A stretch of DNA of 22,020 nt. Origin: Chromera velia. Its lineage: Eukaryota > Sar > Chromeraceae. The notes under the pieces were generated by a model. The model ran no database searches. It saw only the letters and a program-made list of their open reading frames with translations, and was not told the DNA's origin. Made by a program: the position numbers and the translations under genes. Where the stretch lies: NCBI GenBank assembly GCA_018398765.1, contig JAHBMJ010001770.1, positions 2,501 through 24,520 on the forward strand, in the 5' to 3' direction. Positions 6,105-21,869 of the stretch are shown piece after piece (position 1 is the first letter of the stretch; every line of letters begins with the position of its first letter).

Positions 6105-7979
6105 TCCTTCCTTCCTTCCTTCCTTCTTTCTTTCTTTCTTTCTTTCTTCCTTCCCACCTTCCTTCCTTCCTTCCTTCCTTCCTTCCCCCGTCCTTCCTTC
6201 CTTCTGCCATTCTTTCTTTGTTCGTTCGTCTGATTGTTTTTTTGTGAGTTTGTTTGTGGCCGAGTTTCTTCAGGTTTGGTTGGGTTGTGATCATGTGCTT
6301 TGAGAGTTTGTTTTTACTGCCCCTCTATTCTCTGTTCATCTGCAATGGGGGGGTTCGGCGTCTGTGTTGTTTTTACAAACCATTTTAGTCTACGTTTGTG
6401 AGTCTTTAGTTTTGGTGGGGAAATATTACCTGATCGAAAAATCGTTTTCCTTATTCTCTTTTCTCTTCTCTGTGGCCCTCCAAAGAAAGACTCATGTAGT
6501 CTCCCATCCATCCAGTCAGCCAGGTTTGCGCTTTTAAATTCTGCTTTTCCTCTTTTTTGCGTGGCTGGACGGACATTCTCCTCGCTCGATGATGTCTTTT
6601 TTGATCGATCGATCGTCTTTGTGTCTGCCCGCGTGCAGTACACGAAAGCTGGAGGCAAAGTGACAGTGCGGCTGAGCGACGGGGAGCGTCTGGAAGACAA
6701 GGACGACGGCAAAGGGGGGGGAGGCTTAGTGGGAGAGGGGGGAGGTCTGCATCTGTCCAGGGGTCTGGACCCATGTGAGAACGAGGAGGGATGCGCGGTG
6801 GTAGACGCTGCGGGCCTAGAGTTTGGGTGTTTGAGGAGACTTGTGATTGAAATCGCAGACACCGGAAGAGGCATCCCGGAGGACAAGATGAAGTCCGTCA
6901 GTCAGTCAGTCAGTCAGTCAGTCAGTCAGTCAGTCAGTCAGTCAGTCAGTCAAATACGTACGCGTTGTTCGAAATTAGATCAAAGGGACACGGAGACGGT
7001 CGATTGCTGTCTCAGTCAATCTGTCAGTCATTTAGTCACTCAGTCAGTGAGTCAACAAATCCTCAGTCAATCAATCACGAGAAGACAATCTCGGCTCCGA
7101 TTCGGTCAGTAAGTTTCCCACCGGTTCAAAAGGCTCCATTGATCCTTTGTGCGATGTTTTCAGTGTAGAGTGTCGAGGGTCTACATCAAGCTGTTCACGC
7201 AATTTCTGTGTTCTTTCCTTGCAAATATGTGTCAGCCCCGCGCGCTCTTTCTTTTTGTGTGTCTCTCTCTCGGTCTGTCTATCTATCTAACAATCCATGC
7301 GTCTGTCTGTCTGTCTGTCTGTCTCGTGGCATGCAGGGACATCTGGAGCGAGTACGCCCAGGTGAAAGTCCAGGATGCTGCTGTCGGGTCGGGTCTCGGT
7401 CTCTCTATTGTGAAGGCAATTCTGACCGCAATGGGGGGATCAGCACACGCAGGCACTCTTTTCTGTTTCGGTGCTTGCCAGAAATTAATTTCGCGAAACG
7501 CCCCCTCTCCCTCCCACGTGTGCTTCTTTTTCTGTTCAGCAAGTGTGATCAACTAGTCGAGTGAGTGAGTAAGCGAGTCTCTCTCACTCTCTCTCCCCCG
7601 CCCCCTTCCTGTTTTCTCTCATGCATGATCGAGGCGTCCTTCTCCTCCTCTGATCTGCACAAGGACAGACAGTCTCTTTCTCTCTGTTTGTGCATATGTG
7701 TGTGTAGATCTACTCTGAGGAGGGCGTGGGCACTTCTCTGTTTCTGTCCTTTGTGGTGCGGACGCTGGTGCCACGGGGGAGCGGGTCTCTCCGGATTCCG
7801 ATGGGGGAACCGCACAACCCAACCGGCAGCAGTCTCCTAGTGATCCCCCCAAGGTCTCCGAACGGCTCACTGATGATGAACGCCTCCATGAGGGGGGAAT
7901 TTGAACAGGACACTGAGGCGATGTTCTCTGTTGTGGTATGTCAACCTGCGGCTTTTTTAGAGTAGTACCTTTCTCCAGG

Positions 7980-8024
<45 letters not shown>

Positions 8025-9016
8025 TGTCTGTCTCGCTGGTTGGCTGTTTTCCTTCGAAATTCCCCTCAAGAGCAGTTCCTTCTGCAAAGACGAAGGTTGA
8101 GCTCTTGACCAAAAGAATCGCTGGGGTCTGTGCAGCTGCGTGAAGGATTGCTACAGGAAACCGAAGCTTCTGCAAATCACTTAACTGAAAACACATTGAG
8201 TCTCCATTTATAGCTTCCTTCCCTTTCTTTCTCTCTTCTTTCTTCTGTCCGACTGTGTTTCCTTTTCTTTCCTTCCTCCCTTCCTGCCTTTCTTGCTCTG
8301 CTGTCTTTTGCCCTCTTGCAGCCCATCCGCAATGAGAGCACACCACACTCTGACCCGGTACGTGGCCTCTCTTTCTTTCTTTGTTTGATTTATTTGATCA
8401 TCCCTCCTCCATTTGAGGGAAATCTCAATTTTTGCGTGCATGTGACAAATCGCATTGGCCGACCGATTGATTCCTCCTTGCATGCATGCCCTTTAGCTCG
8501 GGCTTCTTTTATGATTGTCCTTTCTCCCTTGCTTTCCTTCTTATTGGATGTTCATTCCGTTGCTCTCTCTATTTGTCCTTCCGTTGGCCGGTCCTCATTT
8601 TCTTCCCTGTATTATCCTTTTCTTAATTTTCTTGAGTCTGTTTCCTCCTTCCATCCGCTTGGAAGGAAGGAACACTTGTACGTTCCCTCCGGCAGAGTTA
8701 ATTAGTTTAATTAATTCCCCCCCGCAGAGACTCTCCGAGTCGGTGCCCGGCTTCGGAGCGAGGAAGAGCCCGCACGCTTTGAGACGATTTACAGCAGCAG
8801 GCGCGCATGGAGGGAGTTTTTTTGGGTCTTCAGGGAAGACCAAGGCAGAGAGAGAGAGAAGGAAGGCGGGGGGGGGAGCGAAGAAATTGACAAAAGACGC
8901 AGAGACAGCGGCACAGTGGGAGGAGCTGAGGGAGCACGCAGAGGCGGGCAGTCAGGAGCTTTTGTGGAACTGTCTCTTGACGCTTCCTGTGGAGTCTGTC
9001 TCAACGCTCCTCGCCC

Positions 9017-12116: not shown

Positions 12117-12147
12117 TTTAAACTAGAAAAAAATATAAGTTTTCATT

Positions 12148-12295
12148 CCTTCCTCCCCCCACCAACCGCCTCTCCTCCCACCCACCGCCTCCACCCACAC
12201 CCTCCACCCCCCCTCTTCTCCCCGCCCCCCCCTCCTCGTCGCGATCTCTCCCTCCCTCTGCCACCCCACCTCTCCCTCGCCACGCCCCCGCACAT
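12148..12295. repeat. C-rich polypyrimidine tract at the 5' side of the retroelement
   Basis: About 150 bases that are almost entirely C and T on the plus strand, with many CCACC, CCTCC and CCCCCC runs. It sits between an AT-rich stretch and the endonuclease coding region. The abrupt change in composition marks either the 5' UTR of the retroelement or a pyrimidine-rich target tract. Confidence 0.6.
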
Positions 12296-12314
12296 TCGAG
12301 ATGCGCTTTCGATT

Positions 12315-13493
12315 TTGAACGATGGGAAAAAGAAAGTGACGTGTGAAGTTTGTAGAGACGATTGGAGAGAATATGAGTGTAGGGTGCATATAGAGATCAG
12401 CGAGGTCAGTATGACGGGGTGTAATCATCGAATCTCCACAATAAAAGCGGAATGGGATAGAAGGGCGAGCAATAGAGATATATGTAGGAAAAGCATGAAC
12501 AAAAAAGTCCGCAGAGCAGCAGAAATTGTGTTTGCTGACCTGTCTGCAGAATCATGGGTGAGGAGAGATCCATCTCGGAGGGCTTTTCACGTCCGTCGGG
12601 CGATTGAGCAGTGCAGAAAATATGGGGAAGGAGTACAAGAGGGGCTGATAGAACCAGAGGGGGGCATCATATATCTTATTTTCTCTCCATTCCGGCGTGG
12701 TTTGTATCTTGGTTCAACCCAGGCAGTACCATCACTAAGATGGGATAGGTATGTGACAGTTGCAAAGAGAGATTGGAAAAGGACCAGCAAGGCCAGGAAG
12801 GGGGCGGGGGGGGACTTATACGAAGTCATGAATCAAAGGACTTTACATGAATTCATCATGCTGCCTGTTTGTCGGATTCGGACAGGGGGAGGGGACTTGA
12901 ATAAACATTTATTGCATGCGGTAGAGCTACATCTGATTGATGTGATAAGACCGAGCCTGAATATTCGCGGGAAGACGGGAGCGGGGGAAGGGGTGCGTTC
13001 TTTTCTTCCCTTCGGTCTTTTTTCATCATTATCTGGTGGCAGCATTCAGACAGCTCAGAGAAATCAATTCAAGGAGGAAGTAGAGCGCCTAAGAGCAAGG
13101 CATGGGGCAGGAGTGCACTGGTTCCGCACGTGGTTTTACGCTTGGTTGGCCCGTAAGGCCCGACCAACGTCTCAGCTCAAAAAGACATCGTTAATTTTTG
13201 AGGACGTGGTGGCATTATACTCTCGTTTTCTTCGGGTGGCATCGGATTTGTTCTTTCGATCTATTTTTGTCAGCAACCTCTTTCGGCTGTGTGAGGCAAA
13301 AGGATTCGACTGGGCTTTGGTCCGAGCGCAAGTGTGGTATCAGGAAATTCGCGTTCCCTTATTTGCTTTCCAGTCTGTGCGCGTTGTATTACATTCGTGT
13401 ATTCGTTCATTTTTTGATTCATTCATGCATGGGGCAGCGGAGGAGAGTGGTGCAGGGGTAAGAAGGAAAAAGAAGGTGTTTCTTTGTTTGTGA
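12315..13493 (+). CDS. GIY-YIG endonuclease domain (retroelement N-terminal part)
   Basis: The signature is a GIY-type strand, GGIIYLIFSPF (Tyr at 12672-12674), then GLYLGST as the YIG strand, then an Arg in SLRWDRY in the catalytic-Arg position. The catalytic Glu is in AVELHLIDVIRPSLN (Glu at 12924-12926), which also has the usual terminal Asn. Upstream, CEVC followed by ECRVH (about 12345-12390) has a C-x2-C...C-x2-H pattern that might bind zinc. The segment after the endonuclease is basic and aromatic without a recognised fold. The open stretch ends at the TGA at 13491. Known role of such domains in Penelope-like elements: nicking target DNA for primed reverse transcription. Domain identification is confident, activity unknown. 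Confidence 0.8.
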   Translation: MNDGKKKVTCEVCRDDWREYECRVHIEISEVSMTGCNHRISTIKAEWDRRASNRDICRKSMNKKVRRAAEIVFADLSAESWVRRDPSRRAFHVRRAIEQCRKYGEGVQEGLIEPEGGIIYLIFSPFRRGLYLGSTQAVPSLRWDRYVTVAKRDWKRTSKARKGAGGDLYEVMNQRTLHEFIMLPVCRIRTGGGDLNKHLLHAVELHLIDVIRPSLNIRGKTGAGEGVRSFLPFGLFSSLSGGSIQTAQRNQFKEEVERLRARHGAGVHWFRTWFYAWLARKARPTSQLKKTSLIFEDVVALYSRFLRVASDLFFRSIFVSNLFRLCEAKGFDWALVRAQVWYQEIRVPLFAFQSVRVVLHSCIRSFFDSFMHGAAEESGAGVRRKKKVFLCL

Positions 13494-13793
13494 GCAGAAA
13501 AGGGAACGACTCTCAGGGATCTCTTTTCAAATGAGAAAGAGGCAACTGCGCGCTTACGTTGGTCAGAGAGAGAGCTGCTGCTAGTTTCTTGCACATATGC
13601 AGACATTGGACGTAGGTTCGGGTTGCACTTGGTGGAGGGGCATATGGTGGATAAGTGGTCGACAGCCTCTGGTTTGCAGCGCCTGTTTGCGACTCCTGAG
13701 AATTAGAACTCTCGATCTCGTTTTATTCCTTCGATAAATGAGGTTGCTAACCATGTAGTAGCAACGCTTAGCCAAAGGCTCGCTCGATCGAGG

Positions 13794-15443
13794 GTGTGGG
13801 GATGGAAGTGGGGGGAGGAAGGAGGAGAAAGGAAACGTGAATGGAAGAACGAATTAACGTACTGCCTTAGCAATTCTTCATTCTTTATAGCTCAGGCCTG
13901 GAGGTTCTGCTCTGTGCCACCTAGAGCAGTGGTGAGAGACTTGCGCAGTAAATTAGTCATTGGGCAGCTGGATCGGTCAGGAGGGGACCTTTTCTTTGTA
14001 TGTCCTCAGGTTTATGCAAATGCAGTGGAGAATTTATTCGTAAAGAATCTTGACTATATATTGTGTACTCAGTTGATGGAAGAAGAAGCAGTAGAAAAGC
14101 TCTTTGGAAAAGGAAAAGGGATTGGGGAGTTAGGGGAGAAAATGGAAAGAAAGTCTCGTGGGCGTCATGCATTTGGGCGAGGGATTGTGTGGCTGAAAGC
14201 AAAATCGTTTAAAGACGGGCACCCTAGACAGCTCTCTGAACTGAAGTGGTACCCACTGGTGTCGTATGTGAGGCACACATGGAGAAAGCCCTTTTCGATT
14301 GTGTGTCGGTTGTTGAATGGATTGCTTTCCACTTTAAGTCCGCATGCGACCTTGTTTTCACCGTTTACTTTTATGCAAGACATCGAAAAATTTAATGGGG
14401 GGTCGGGAGATATCGAATGCGCCCATTTTACTGCTGTTCGGGGAAGGATGTTACCGTCTGTTTCACATTTTAGTCAGATCTTCGTTTATGTCGAGGACAT
14501 TAAGAACTTTTATCCTTCAATTCCCCGAGCATTGGTTCTTCATTTACTTTCTTGTATGTTTGATGAGCTTCGTGCATCTCGTCGGTATTCTTTTTTAGTA
14601 TTGCCTTTTTCTTCTGTTGGGGGTGTTCGGATTTATTCTGCCACAATCATGGGGAGAGGAGGGAGAAAGTGGACGCCCAAGGGTCACACTCGGCCTACAG
14701 CTTTTCTTTTAACACACGGCCGGTTCCAGAATGCATGGACACTTTCTTTTGACGAAATTCTGGATTTTGTGAAATTGGACTTTGCGACCTGCTTTGTGGC
14801 TATTGGGAATCGTCATGTGTGGTAGCGGCAGGGGTTTGCACAAGGCTCTCCTCTGTCACCGGCCCTTGCGAATGGAAGTACGGCTTTGGTCGAACGTGAT
14901 TGGGCCACAGCCCAGGGGATTAGCTCCTTGTCGGGCAGTAAGCGTGTGGTACGAAGATGGATGGATGATCGGCTCCTGGTTGCTTGCCTTCCCTTTGCTT
15001 TAGAAAAAGATCACATATGTACAAGTCTTCGCAGGGAGGATTTTTATGCTGTTGAATGTGTGCTTAAGGAGCAAAATTCGGACACTTTTCTGCAGTTTGA
15101 GCTTTGTCCATACAACTGCTGTACCCGCTTGTTTTTATTGCCGAAGGACCCCAATCGCTGTCGTGTTTCTTTGCTAGCTGGTAGAGTGAAAGCTCCTCTT
15201 CCCTTTCCTCGCTATGCTCATGCGCGATCAGCTGTTCCTGCACATCGTCTTCTTGACACTTTGCGTTCTCATATTTTACGTGCGTTTCTTTTTTCGTTAT
15301 GTCCTGATTCTTTGTTTGTTGCAGTTTTATGTGGTATGTGGAAAGAATTGCAGGAGTGTGGTTTTCTTTTGCATAACATCCGTCGCATCACTTTTGGTTT
15401 ACTTTTAGCAGCCGGTCTTGGTCACCTTCGCGATCGGTTTTGA
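13794..15443 (+). pseudogene. Reverse transcriptase domain (retroelement C-terminal part), split by a TAG
   Basis: The finger region includes IGQLDRSGGDLFFV (Asp at 13971-13973), resembling the DKG-type motif of Penelope-like RTs. Motif A is YVEDIKNFYPSIPRA (catalytic Asp 14496-14498). Motif B is RQGFAQGSPLSPALAN, starting right after the TAG at 14823-14825. Motif C is RRWMDDRLLV (Asp pair 14964-14969), with Trp-Met in place of the usual Tyr-x. The thumb region includes MWKELQECGFLLHNIRR. The frame ends at TGA 15441-15443. All three catalytic Asp residues survive although the frame is interrupted, which suggests fairly recent loss. A non-retrotransposon RT is possible but less likely, given the linked GIY-YIG domain. 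Confidence 0.8.
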
Positions 15444-15840
15444 AGGAGAGAATTTGAGTTTTATAGCTGCACTTAGGGCGGCTGCAATTTTATATCGGTT
15501 GGCGCATGGTGAAGGGCGGGCGCGCGCCATGCGCCGCTGTTTTGCTTTCGTCCGCGGCCTGCCATGCATTTGTTTTTGTAGCATTGGCATGCATTTGTGT
15601 GAGTTAGCATGCATGGGCCATCCGAGATTAATGTGCACTTTGCCTATGATTTCAACAATTCGCATACAAACCCTTTGGATCGAAACCGCTCGATCTTCTC
15701 GCTTCCTGCAGAGGATATTGAAAGCTGACACTCCGCAAACGTCTGACAGGGTGCATGAAAGTCAGAAAATACAGTTGATTAATGCAATTTTATATAGTTT
15801 TACAGTTATTTTACATCAATGTTGGAGTATGTTGGAGTAG
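15418..15840 (+). other. Open frame overlapping the retroelement 3' end (status unclear)
   Basis: A 140-codon open stretch starts 26 bases before the RT stop, in a different frame. It is rich in Cys, Arg and Ile and has no motif I know. It could be the continuation of the retroelement protein after a single frameshift, or chance. Near its end a 10-bp unit, ATGTTGGAGT, is repeated in tandem. Confidence 0.25.
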
Positions 15841-15931: not shown

Positions 15932-16450
15932 TACACAGTACGGTTAGGAGTAACGAAAGTAAGACGGTTACTAGGTGGCCGCTAGGCCGTCCGGTTACCA
16001 ATTTTGTGGTTACGGTAGTAGTGTTCCAATGGTAGTGGTAGTAGCTAAAAATAGGCAGATTTTGCCATATTCTGAGTTTAACTTGACCTACAAAACCAAT
16101 TTTAGCTAGTAAAAATCATATTTTTGGCATTCATTAAAAGTTTATTCTAGTAAAATTCAATGTTCATCATTTTATGACTGAACTCAGTGAACTCTAACTA
16201 GTATATTACTATATATATAGCATATATGTTATTTGAATATGATCATTTCAGCGCTTTAAACTGTTAATAACTTAAGTGGTCAGACTTTAAAATAGGTTTA
16301 GCAACTGCTTTTATCAGAGTTTTTCCTTGAACTACCATGGTAATGGTATATGCCTTCAAGTCTGCCGGTTACCATCTCATGGTTACTAAAGTGACGGTAA
16401 CTCACTACTGGCTAAAAAAAGCCAGTAGTAACTCCTAACTGTACTGTGTA
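15932..16450. mobile_element. 519-bp non-autonomous DNA transposon (MITE, hAT-like) with 8-bp target duplication
   Basis: The ends are inverted copies of each other. The left end starts TACACAGTACGGTTAGGAGT, and the reverse complement of the right end differs at one position in the first 20. The flanks carry the same 8 bases, AAGCCCGG, at 15924-15931 and 16451-16458: a perfect target-site duplication. No coding sequence lies inside and the interior is AT-rich. The motif GGTTAC or its complement recurs near both ends, like transposase-binding subterminal repeats. Eight-base duplications are known for hAT, P and Merlin elements. The terminal bases are not the typical hAT CAGNG form, so the superfamily is inferred. 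Confidence 0.85.
16404..16429. repeat. Subterminal hairpin inside the MITE
   Basis: ACTACTGGCT and its exact complement AGCCAGTAGT are separated by six A residues. This 10-bp perfect stem lies about 20 bases inside the right end; no equivalent is seen at the left end. Confidence 0.8.
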
Positions 16451-19149: not shown

Positions 19150-21600
19150 TTGAGCGTTCATAGATGTGTTCGTTCCCCTTGTCATCTGTCTGTGTGTCTG
19201 TCTGTATGTATGTGTGTGTGTGTGCAGGTCCAGTGGCGCGCTGAGCACGCGGCTTCTGAATCGGTGGTTGAGAAGATCAAGGGGGAGATGGAGGGCTTCG
19301 GCAAGCAGTGCGAACTCGCAGCGTCCCAATCTGAGGCTCTGATTAAAATGATCTCCCACGACTACGACGTCATTCAGGACGTCATCAAGGGCCACCCATG
19401 CACCCCCAAAACCATCTTCCTCCAGCAACAAACCGAAGCTGAAGGTGATACCAATCAACGCACCAACCCACAAACCACCCCCTCTCTCCGTCGCTCGTCC
19501 CCCTCCAACAGTCCCTTTTCCTTTCTCGAAACATCCGCGTCCACCTCCTCCACAGCCAGGGCAGCCCAGGTGCTTCTTGACAAGTACCGAAGGATGGGCA
19601 TAGAGGCCCTCAGAGGAGGGGATGTGACAAAGCCCTACTACCGTCTCAGCAGCGACGAGGAGTCCGAGCTAGAGGCCTCCAAGGGCCTCGTGCTCCTCAG
19701 ATGCTCCTTCAAGTCGGGCCTGTCCTTCTTGACGTTCCGAGAGCCGTCTCTGGCGAAGGCCATGGTCCAGATGAGCAACAAAAAGTTCAGGGCCCTGCAG
19801 GTCCGTCAGACTGAGCTCATGAGGTGCAGGGACGAGGGAGGGAGGAAGCCGAGCGGCCCTCTTGATGATAGAAAAACAAAAAAAAAGGGCAGACAGAAAA
19901 GAGACACACGTGTCCGCAACGAAGGGCTGTCTCGGCAGGCCAAACAAAGGAAAAAAGGAAGGAAGAAGAGAGCGACGAAAAGTCGAATGACACCATCCAT
20001 CAATGAATAAGGCGCATCAGAGAAGAGAGAGAGAAACCAGTAAAGAGACAGAAAGATCACGTGCGTGTGATGGGATTGTTGCTGCATGGACACGCGGAAA
20101 GGAAGAAAAGAAGAAAGGAAGGAAGGAAGGAAGAAAGACAGACAGACAGACAGACAGAAAGAAAGAAAGAAAGAACACAGACTCACCCTTCCCTTCCCTC
20201 TTTTCTTTGTGGTTCTAGGCACGCAGTTTCATTATTTGATGCAAATCTGCCTACGCTGTATTGTATGAGTTGTTATCCGTTCCGTCACACCCCTTCTTCT
20301 GTTTGTTCCTTTTTTTTTGTTCTTTTTCTTTTTCTTCCTCTTCTCTCAGGACGAGCTGGAGTCTCTCATCGAGGCCGGCTCCTCCACAGAAGTGCAGACA
20401 GAGATCGGCAAAGAAGAGTCGTTCTCTTCCAAAACCACTGCGACCACCACAGTCGCTGTGAAGGACCCTGCAGCTGCAGACAAGGAGGCCAGAGATCTAG
20501 CCAAAAAGATTCGAAATGCGCAGATAGCAGGGGAGGATGTGGATGCAGAAGCCGAATGTGACTTTGCGGGGTCGGCACTGTGCCCTGAGTTCTTTGAGTC
20601 GTTGTCCGATCTAGGGGGGGATGTAGACACAGAGCTCCAGAACGAAATAGCATTCAGGGACTCCAACCAGATTACATGCGATGAGACGCAACAACGGATG
20701 CAACTCGATTTGGGGGGGTGGGAGACGCACGTGACCTACTGCTCCAAACACGCTGCCGCATTGGCAGGTCGCATTGAGGAGTTGAAGGAGATTGTGCGGA
20801 ATATTGGGGAGGCAGCGAAGGAGTTGCTGTCCCAATTCAATGGAAAGCAGGAGTACTGCAGTGAGGCAATGGAGGAAAAGAAGTCTGCCATGTGTGGGGC
20901 CATCAGGGTGAAAACAGAGTTGATGCGAATGAATTCGATTCCGAATGAAATTTGGGATTGTGAGATGTCACCCTTTGAAGAGTCCGAGTGCTCGGCCTCC
21001 TGTGGGGGGGGCACGAGGAGGTGGAAGAGGGACATCGTGCTCAACCCGAGCCCGACGTATGGCACCAAGTGTGGTGCATCGTCCTATGATTTTGCCTGCA
21101 ACACCCAGGAGTGTCCCACCCACTGCAGAACTAGTCCCTGGTCCCCCTGGACCCATTGCTCTGCCGAGTGCGGCCTAGGTATGCACTACCGAGTCCGATC
21201 CGTTGATCAATACCCCTTGAACGGGGGTCAGTCCTGTCCGTCTTTGCAAGACGCAGATGAGTGCGATGCAGGGATTTGTGATGCACCCTGTGAGCTGACT
21301 GGGTGGACTGAGTGGTCCCGCTGTTCCTCCTTTTGTGGGGGGGGGAAGAAGACTCGAGAGAAGTATGTGAAGAAAGAGGCGATTGGGGAGGGTACCTGTC
21401 CGGGTGAGAGGAGTCCTCTGCGGTATGAGGAGATCCCCTGCAACACCGCTGCTTGTTTCCCTGGCATTCCGGTGTGCAACAAGATGATCGATTTGGTCAT
21501 TGTGGTGGACTCGAGTGGGTCGATCGGAAAGAAAAATTGGCCCACCATCGTCAAGGGAGTTACCCGAATTGTTCACCAAGTCAACCTGGCACACGTACAG
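17323..21600 (+). CDS. Secreted or surface adhesin-like protein: coiled coil, three TSP1 repeats, vWA domain (spliced, 3' partial)
   Basis: Phase-consistent exons: 17323-17416, 18084-18305, 18679-18794, 19228-19800 (perhaps split by a 111-nt intron, 19445-19555) and 20350-21600. The last ends ACACGTACAG/GTAGGG inside the vWA domain, so the gene continues outside the window. The N-terminus MKNLPAVWASVGASVVSGAL looks like a weak signal peptide, as expected for an extracellular protein. Several hundred helical, charged residues follow, then three thrombospondin type 1 repeats and a vWA beginning DLVIVVDSSGSIG (MIDAS D-x-S-x-S). TSP1 plus vWA is the hallmark of apicomplexan adhesins such as TRAP and MIC2, but there vWA precedes TSP1. 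Role inferred: adhesion or matrix binding. The first exon is the least certain, chosen for ATG, hydrophobic core and phase match. Confidence 0.82.
18084..19800 (+). CDS. Adhesin-like gene: helical/coiled-coil exons
   Basis: Exon 18084-18305 (acceptor TTTTGCAG, donor G/GTCAGT) encodes DMKTLKEIASQLSTEDAVQ and further helical sequence ending QAQTEM. Exon 18679-18794 begins DWTYIDCQSDLRAKQQALE and ends DAVAEQ. Exon 19228-19800 begins VQWRAEHAASESVVEKIKGE and ends KKFRALQ. Charged and hydrophobic residues alternate as in long helices or coiled coils; no named domain is recognised. The middle of the last exon (19445-19555) is Ser/Thr/Pro-rich, starts GTGATA, ends in a pyrimidine tract plus ACAG, and is a multiple of three long, so it may be an intron. 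Exon phases agree across the chain. Confidence 0.75.
18614..18650. repeat. GT run (intron)
   Basis: About 16 GT units in the intron before exon 18679. Confidence 0.9.
18848..19147. repeat. CCTG units and long GT run (intron)
   Basis: Eight CCTG/TGCC units at about 18848-18879 and a GT run of about 30 units at about 19083-19147, in the intron between exons 18679 and 19228. GTCT/GTAT units follow up to the acceptor. Confidence 0.9.
20093..20175. repeat. Purine-rich GAAA/GGAA/GACA array (intron)
   Basis: GAAA, AAGG and GACA units on the plus strand. This is the one large intronic array here in which the sense strand is purine-rich rather than pyrimidine-rich. Confidence 0.88.
20350..21600 (+). 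CDS. Adhesin-like gene: Cys-containing helical region, TSP1 x3 and vWA start
   Basis: 417 codons in one exon (acceptor TCTCTCAG). About the first 200 residues are acidic and helical with scattered Cys (AECDF, ALCPEFF, ITCDE, TYCSKH, EYCSEA, SAMCGA). The TSP1 repeats follow. Repeat 1, about 20960-21115, has ESECSASCGGGTRRWKR without the usual Trp pair. Repeat 2, about 21125-21280, has SPWSPWTHCSAECGLG. Repeat 3, about 21290-21460, has TGWTEWSRCSSFCGGG. Repeats 2 and 3 carry WxxW, the C-mannosylation pattern; only repeat 1 has the C-x-x-S-C-G O-fucosylation pattern. The vWA starts about 21480 with the MIDAS DSSGS. Family assignment is firm. Confidence 0.92.
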
Positions 21601-21869
21601 GTAGGGAGGGAGGGAGGGAAGGGAAGGCGAGGGGAGGCTGGCATGCAGACGGGTTCTTTTCTCTTTTCTCTTTTGGTGTTGTTCGGCCTTCTGATTGGTT
21701 CATATGCTGTGGTCTGTCCGTCTGTCTGCCTGGACATTTTCTTTCTTTCTTGCTCTCTTTCTTTTCCTGTCAGTGTCTCTATCGGGTGCATGAGGTTTTG
21801 CTTTTGTGCCTGTCTCTTTGTCTTCGGCCTTCTTTGGTTTGGTATTGTTTAGGTTTTCTTTTTTACACC

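Follow-up and report, generated by a model that had tools for sequence, protein, structure and literature searches.

A Retroelement Copy in the Window

The window, a stretch of 22,020 nucleotides, corresponds to positions 2501-24520 of contig C1767 in a genome of 177.8 Mb (4040 contigs). It carries a retroelement copy, and the features of this copy are listed in Table 1. Frame 1 of positions 12117-15443 has 1109 codons and only three internal stops, against a chance expectation of about 50 (3/64 per codon). The genome has 43 matches to this region. One is the window itself; the remaining 42 show 87-96% identity, and in some cases separate matches are pieces of a single copy. In 18 of the 20 loci that we fetched, the 3' end lies at the same place (15783-15802); the exceptions are L023, which has an insertion, and L024, which meets the contig end. 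These locus counts include two overlapping pairs that share copies (L013/L014 and L022/L023).

A preliminary description of this DNA had placed the element at 12117-15443. The motifs are present in the order that it gave, but the element begins at 12294 and runs to approximately 15790. The 177 bases at 12117-12293 are probably host DNA outside the element, because the alignment of the sister copies starts at 12294 and a query of 11000-12320 matches nothing in the genome besides the window. The description had also proposed that the assembly be searched for further copies and pseudo-LTRs; the copies exist, and no pseudo-LTR could be defined among them. The window copy is a dead relic.

Table 1. 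Positions of the retroelement features in the window
Feature	Position	Strand	Remarks
Retroelement copy	12294..15790	+	5'-truncated; sister copies align from 12294; 3' end common with sisters
ORF2 remnant	12315..15443	+	Single frame; internal stops at 13491, 13704, 14823
Putative GIY-YIG endonuclease core	12663..12971	+	GGIIYLIF...GLYLGST...R...E...SLN; four sequences agree at Y, Y-x-G-x-T, R, E and N
Linker LVSCTYADIGRRFGLHLVEGH	13581..13643	+	CxC decayed to CTY in the window copy; CTC in four sisters
DRSGGD	13971..13988	+	Motif A follows after 173-177 residues (five sequences)
RT motif A EDIKNFYPSIPR	14493..14528	+	DIKNFYPSI at about 14496
Long motif A-B' stretch	14529..14828	+	Motif A Asp and QG lie 115 residues apart; resembles an insertion in the fingers
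RT motif B' QGFAQGSPLSP	14829..14861	+	Motif reading, alignment
RT motif C RWMDD	14955..14969	+	Motif reading, alignment
3' untranslated region	15444..15790	+	Terminus is CAGTTGATCAATGCAAT bar one change

Putative Endonuclease

The signature residues of the GIY-YIG family are Y, YxG, R, E, and N. We aligned the endonuclease (EN) of the window with those of L010, L042, and L043, four sequences that span three families, L042 and L043 being approximately 30% identical to the window. All four sequences are identical in 19 columns, which include Y25, G34, Y36, G38, T40, R47, E109, and N121. In a canonical Penelope-like element, mutants of the EN Tyr and Gly lose DNA cleavage (PMC11167929).

Profile comparisons give faint signals. 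Two of the four EN pieces match Pfam PF01541 (GIY-YIG), with an E-value of 0.0045 at best and 0.048 for the window piece, all below the curated cut-off. Pfam gives no GIY-YIG match when longer pieces are used (window, L042, and L043), and the EN profile has no match in the PDB. A PF01541 scan of the genome does not return the present element; the one match above the cut-off genome-wide is another gene (L039, 1381-3003), a GIY-YIG frame that lies, by eye, just 3' of a helicase-like frame and outside the element. We accept the N-terminal domain as a predicted GIY-YIG EN on the conservation of its residues, not on E-values. The invariant columns of the aligned core (four sequences) contain no Cys and no His, although the CCHH motif may lie elsewhere in the EN.

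Linker and Reverse Transcriptase

A linker of the form CxC...(E/D)GH follows the EN. Among the seven own-family copies read, four have CTC (L010, L012, L016, and L023), the window and L013 have CTY, and L018 has YTC. Across six loci, CxC is found in L010 (CTCADIG), L040 (CDCGRL), L042 (CHCREI), and L043 (CNCERL); the window has CTY, and L041 is without CxC (YPCRSL). Since Cys-to-Tyr requires one G-to-A change, the commonest change in the family, the window copy probably lost its CxC through decay. The preliminary description had failed to find this linker, but the element does not lack it: the motif is missing from the window copy, and sisters and other families keep it. A second Cys-rich stretch lies 5' of the EN (window 12345-12395), reading RDDWRECECR in L010 and RDDVRKCSCK in L043, with one Cys replaced by Tyr in the window.

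The reverse transcriptase (RT) is recognized by its motifs. An alignment of five sequences, from families approximately 30% identical, shows motifs A, B', and C plainly, and all five contain a DRxxGD block, which we take to be the DKG motif of Penelope-like elements. Motif C had been described as WMDD and considered distinctive; it is not fixed, and occurs as RWMDD, RWMND, RWIDN, and RYMDD. The spacing between motifs A and B' is 112-115 residues in the five sequences, compared with 49 (8bgj), 62 (9d4s), and 42 (7v9u) in bacterial RTs of the PDB. Judged on length, not on structure, this stretch would fit an insertion in the fingers.

How close is this RT to known ones? Three of the five RT pieces match Pfam RVT_1 (E-value 0.0043 at best, below the curated cut-off), and window 14886-15440 has no RVT_1 match in Pfam. 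The comparison with GIY-YIG and RT profiles suggested in the preliminary description thus returns matches to both PF01541 and RVT_1, all of them weak and below the curated cut-offs. Against the PDB, the RT profile finds bacterial-type RTs only, weakly (best E-value 0.0036), and telomerase RT (TERT) is not matched up to an E-value of 10. The NCBIfam group II RT profile matches at 0.00092, which falls far short of its cut-off. No relative was confirmed in viral and prokaryote collections, and a Penelope-motif pattern had no match. Structure predictions from single sequences (mean pLDDT 34 and 31) gave no usable fold.

ORF1 and the Whole Element

The copies at L013, L016, L018, and L023 reach further 5' than the window copy, that of L013 by approximately 1.9 kb. 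L013 contains an additional open reading frame, ORF1, which begins MSGFPVSGG and includes RRGPGRPRKDG, where GRPRK looks like an AT-hook by eye; a Pfam comparison of ORF1 found no AT-hook and one unrelated sub-threshold match. ORF2 follows ORF1 in a different frame. An ORF1 query (P0005) has matches on 14 contigs of other families (E-values 7e-21 to 0.002). On ten of these, an EN match lies 3' of ORF1 on the same strand (gaps 996-1322), and on the other four none is listed. Because ORF1 precedes the EN in this way in other families, ORF1-EN-RT looks like an old unit. The conserved ORF1 5' of the EN is a new feature here. The outermost 53 nt searched in L013 match nowhere else in the genome, and the element is at least approximately 5.4 kb long.

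Copy Ends and C-to-T Decay

In 18 of the 20 fetched loci, the 3' end of the copies is fixed, approximately 350 nt past the RT frame, and the 5' ends vary. At three places the 3' end alone is present: approximately 25 nt at L031 (227, minus strand), 67 nt at L045, and 36 nt at L046. This pattern fits target-primed synthesis from the 3' end. The EN would nick chromosomal DNA, and the RT would extend the free 3' end along the element RNA, starting from its fixed 3' terminus; synthesis may often stop early, leaving 5'-truncated copies. Two cases of head-to-tail partial tandems were found (C63 and C3833). No target site duplication was seen in 19 rows inspected, approximately ten of which have a real 5' junction. 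The only match beyond 200 shuffles, 18 nt at L012, was rejected as such a duplication, since the 5' junction of L012 carries an 18-19-nt copy of the element's own 3' end. No hammerhead ribozyme was found up to an E-value of 1 in the window, L010, or L013.

The copies have decayed mostly by C-to-T change, likewise a new observation here. An alignment of 16 copies contains 1444 departures from the column majority; C>T and G>A account for 1223 of them and transversions for 103. When the data are filtered more strictly, CpG sites show such changes at a rate of 9.2%, CpA sites not before G at 7.4%, and other sites at 2-5%; the window copy has 56 C>T/G>A changes and three transversions. Nested within the own-family copy of L016, in opposite orientation, is an element of the same type but a different family (7365-8822). 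Compared with L042, this nested copy shows 71 transitions and four transversions in 1510 bases. Other shared repeats (15 rows, some counting one repeat twice) have 217 transitions to 60 transversions and are less biased; the present elements thus show the strongest bias. The decay fits both methylation followed by deamination and a RIP-like process, and suggests host defence or methylation. We know of C-to-T hypermutation of repeats only from fungi or under heavy methylation.

Other Features of the Window and the Host

Just 3' of the element lies a high-copy repeat of approximately 520 bp (15932-16450; 40 of 332 candidate places scored). It has inverted ends of 23 nt and what, by eye, is an 8-bp duplication, AAGCCCGG, and resembles a hAT-like MITE. 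An open frame at 20317-21849 contains three TSP1 stretches, and it matches, at a sub-threshold E-value of 0.00039, the beginning of a VWA domain; apicomplexan TRAP-like adhesins combine these two domains. A sub-threshold HATPase_c match at 6561-7109 (E-value 6.4e-05) is perhaps an exon of a host gene.

A chromerid-like alveolate had been proposed as the host, and the antenna genes and the TSP1 gene indicate that the host is probably a chromerid, a photosynthetic alveolate. The genome has 58 antenna-protein matches, one of them on C63, a contig that also carries two element copies. Plastid psaA and psaB are not found in the assembly, and a search of the genome for telomerase (RBD) gave nothing above the cut-off.

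Order of the Two Domains

Do the EN and the RT belong to one element? An RT query from L010 has at least 116 matches in the genome, with identity down to approximately 30%. Those listed, sorted by identity, comprise 44 own-family matches and 72 diverged ones on 70 contigs. On 32 of these 70 diverged-RT contigs, the EN or linker is matched 5' of the RT, on the same strand and within 5 kb (gaps 0.9-2.6 kb); in 30 of the 32 the match covers some or all of the GIY-YIG core, and in two the linker only (C3422 and C862). A single frame spans both domains in L010 (four in-frame stops in 1146 codons) and L043 (two in 1155), and in L040 the EN Glu and Asn and the RT fall within one 844-codon frame.

Were the EN and the RT of separate origin, each from its own element or gene, the window would show a chance neighbourhood, a reading to which its stops between the two domains lend something, as do the 37 of 70 listed diverged-RT contigs that have no EN match. 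The latter can be attributed to 5' truncation. The order and strand recur on 32 contigs of diverged families. This co-linearity, together with the single EN-RT frames, refutes the two-element explanation, and we regard its probability as negligible. Other copies revealing two separate elements had been named beforehand as the finding that would overturn the initial proposal; the copies are instead co-linear, and the proposal of an EN ahead of the RT, in one frame and one element, is borne out. The apparent order could also arise in a partial tandem of a canonical Penelope-like element, where the EN of the upstream unit would look N-terminal to the RT of the next. Such elements do form partial tandems, as stated in two papers (PMC11167929 and PMC3846280), and C63 and C3833 are head-to-tail cases here. 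Yet EN, linker, and RT share one frame with no element end between them, the copies stop shortly after the RT frame, and in 46 EN-RT row pairs on shared contigs the EN is 3' of the RT just once (C604, where EN matches lie 15 kb 5' and 3.1 kb 3' of the RT). We therefore disfavor the tandem as the cause of a false order and consider it very improbable. The permuted EN-RT retroelement is genuine.

Discussion

To which class does this element belong? Naiad and Chlamys elements have the EN N-terminal to the RT, a CxC linker, and a fingers insertion between motifs A and B', and are not known to carry a canonical hammerhead. The CxC linker, the long A-B' stretch, and the lack of a hammerhead point to this N-terminal-EN type. 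Membership among Penelope-like elements rests on architecture and motifs. We consider it likely that these are non-LTR Penelope-like retrotransposons of the N-terminal-EN type, with Chlamys as the nearest known group. They have two ORFs: ORF1, and an ORF2 predicted to encode EN, CxC linker, DRxxGD, and an RT with a finger insertion. They might instead form a distinct non-LTR lineage outside Penelope-like elements, in which a GIY-YIG EN joined an RT independently; the RT profile lies nearest, weakly, to bacterial RTs (the group II match being far sub-threshold), and the two-ORF layout is LINE-like. This we think unlikely, since the linker, the spacing like that of a finger insertion, DRxxGD, and the lack of a hammerhead jointly match the permuted Penelope-like type.

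The permuted retroelement is most likely Chlamys-like, and its host group is probably new for permuted Penelope-like elements, a range extension. The definitions of Chlamys reportedly come from Craig et al. 2021. Permuted Penelope-like elements are said to keep the finger insertion that links them with telomerase, and N-terminal-EN elements have an insertion bias for microsatellites. The families in this one genome, approximately 30 to 48% identical, make a good data set for RT placement and for the study of target choice. The preliminary description gave the range of Chlamys as green algae, spike mosses, and slime molds, which is out of date: the brown alga Ectocarpus carries three Chlamys families, according to a 2025 paper which states that Penelope-like elements had been unreported in TSAR (PMC12477816). 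We found no report of Penelope-like elements in Chromera, dinoflagellates, or other alveolates among the openly licensed papers listed, and the word Penelope is absent from the main text of the chromerid genome paper (PMC4501334). Penelope-like elements and telomerase share a common RT ancestor (PMC3846280). Finding permuted elements in a relative of apicomplexans would add alveolates to their range and help to date the permuted form. A more speculative reading, which we think less likely than not, is that permuted two-ORF Penelope-like elements form a deep lineage of their own here, with many families in a chromerid and copies that record C-to-T hypermutation of repeats. If true, such a lineage, together with the brown-algal Chlamys, would point to an early presence of the permuted form in TSAR.

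Canonical Penelope and Poseidon elements resemble the present ones in combining GIY-YIG and RT, in 5' truncation, and in partial tandems (PMC11167929 and PMC3846280). They differ in having a C-terminal EN, a single ORF, a hammerhead, and pseudo-LTRs, whereas here the EN is N-terminal and no hammerhead was found; their single ORF (PMC11167929) sets them apart from the present elements with their conserved ORF1. The C-terminal EN that defines Penelope and Poseidon is not what we observe, the EN being 5' of the RT. R2 and LINEs share the common 3' end, the 5' truncation, and the target-primed logic, but they use other endonucleases. Naiads also have the EN before the RT, the CxC linker, and the finger insertion; however, they are invertebrate elements whose EN keeps CCHH, and the present EN core has no invariant Cys or His. 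The Chlamys EN is not known to carry the CCHH motif. Set beside Chlamys by description, the present elements differ in their two ORFs with a conserved ORF1 and in their host, which is probably an alveolate. They are like Chlamys in the EN before the RT, the CxC linker, the putative finger insertion in the RT, the lack of a hammerhead, and in being found in algal or protist hosts.
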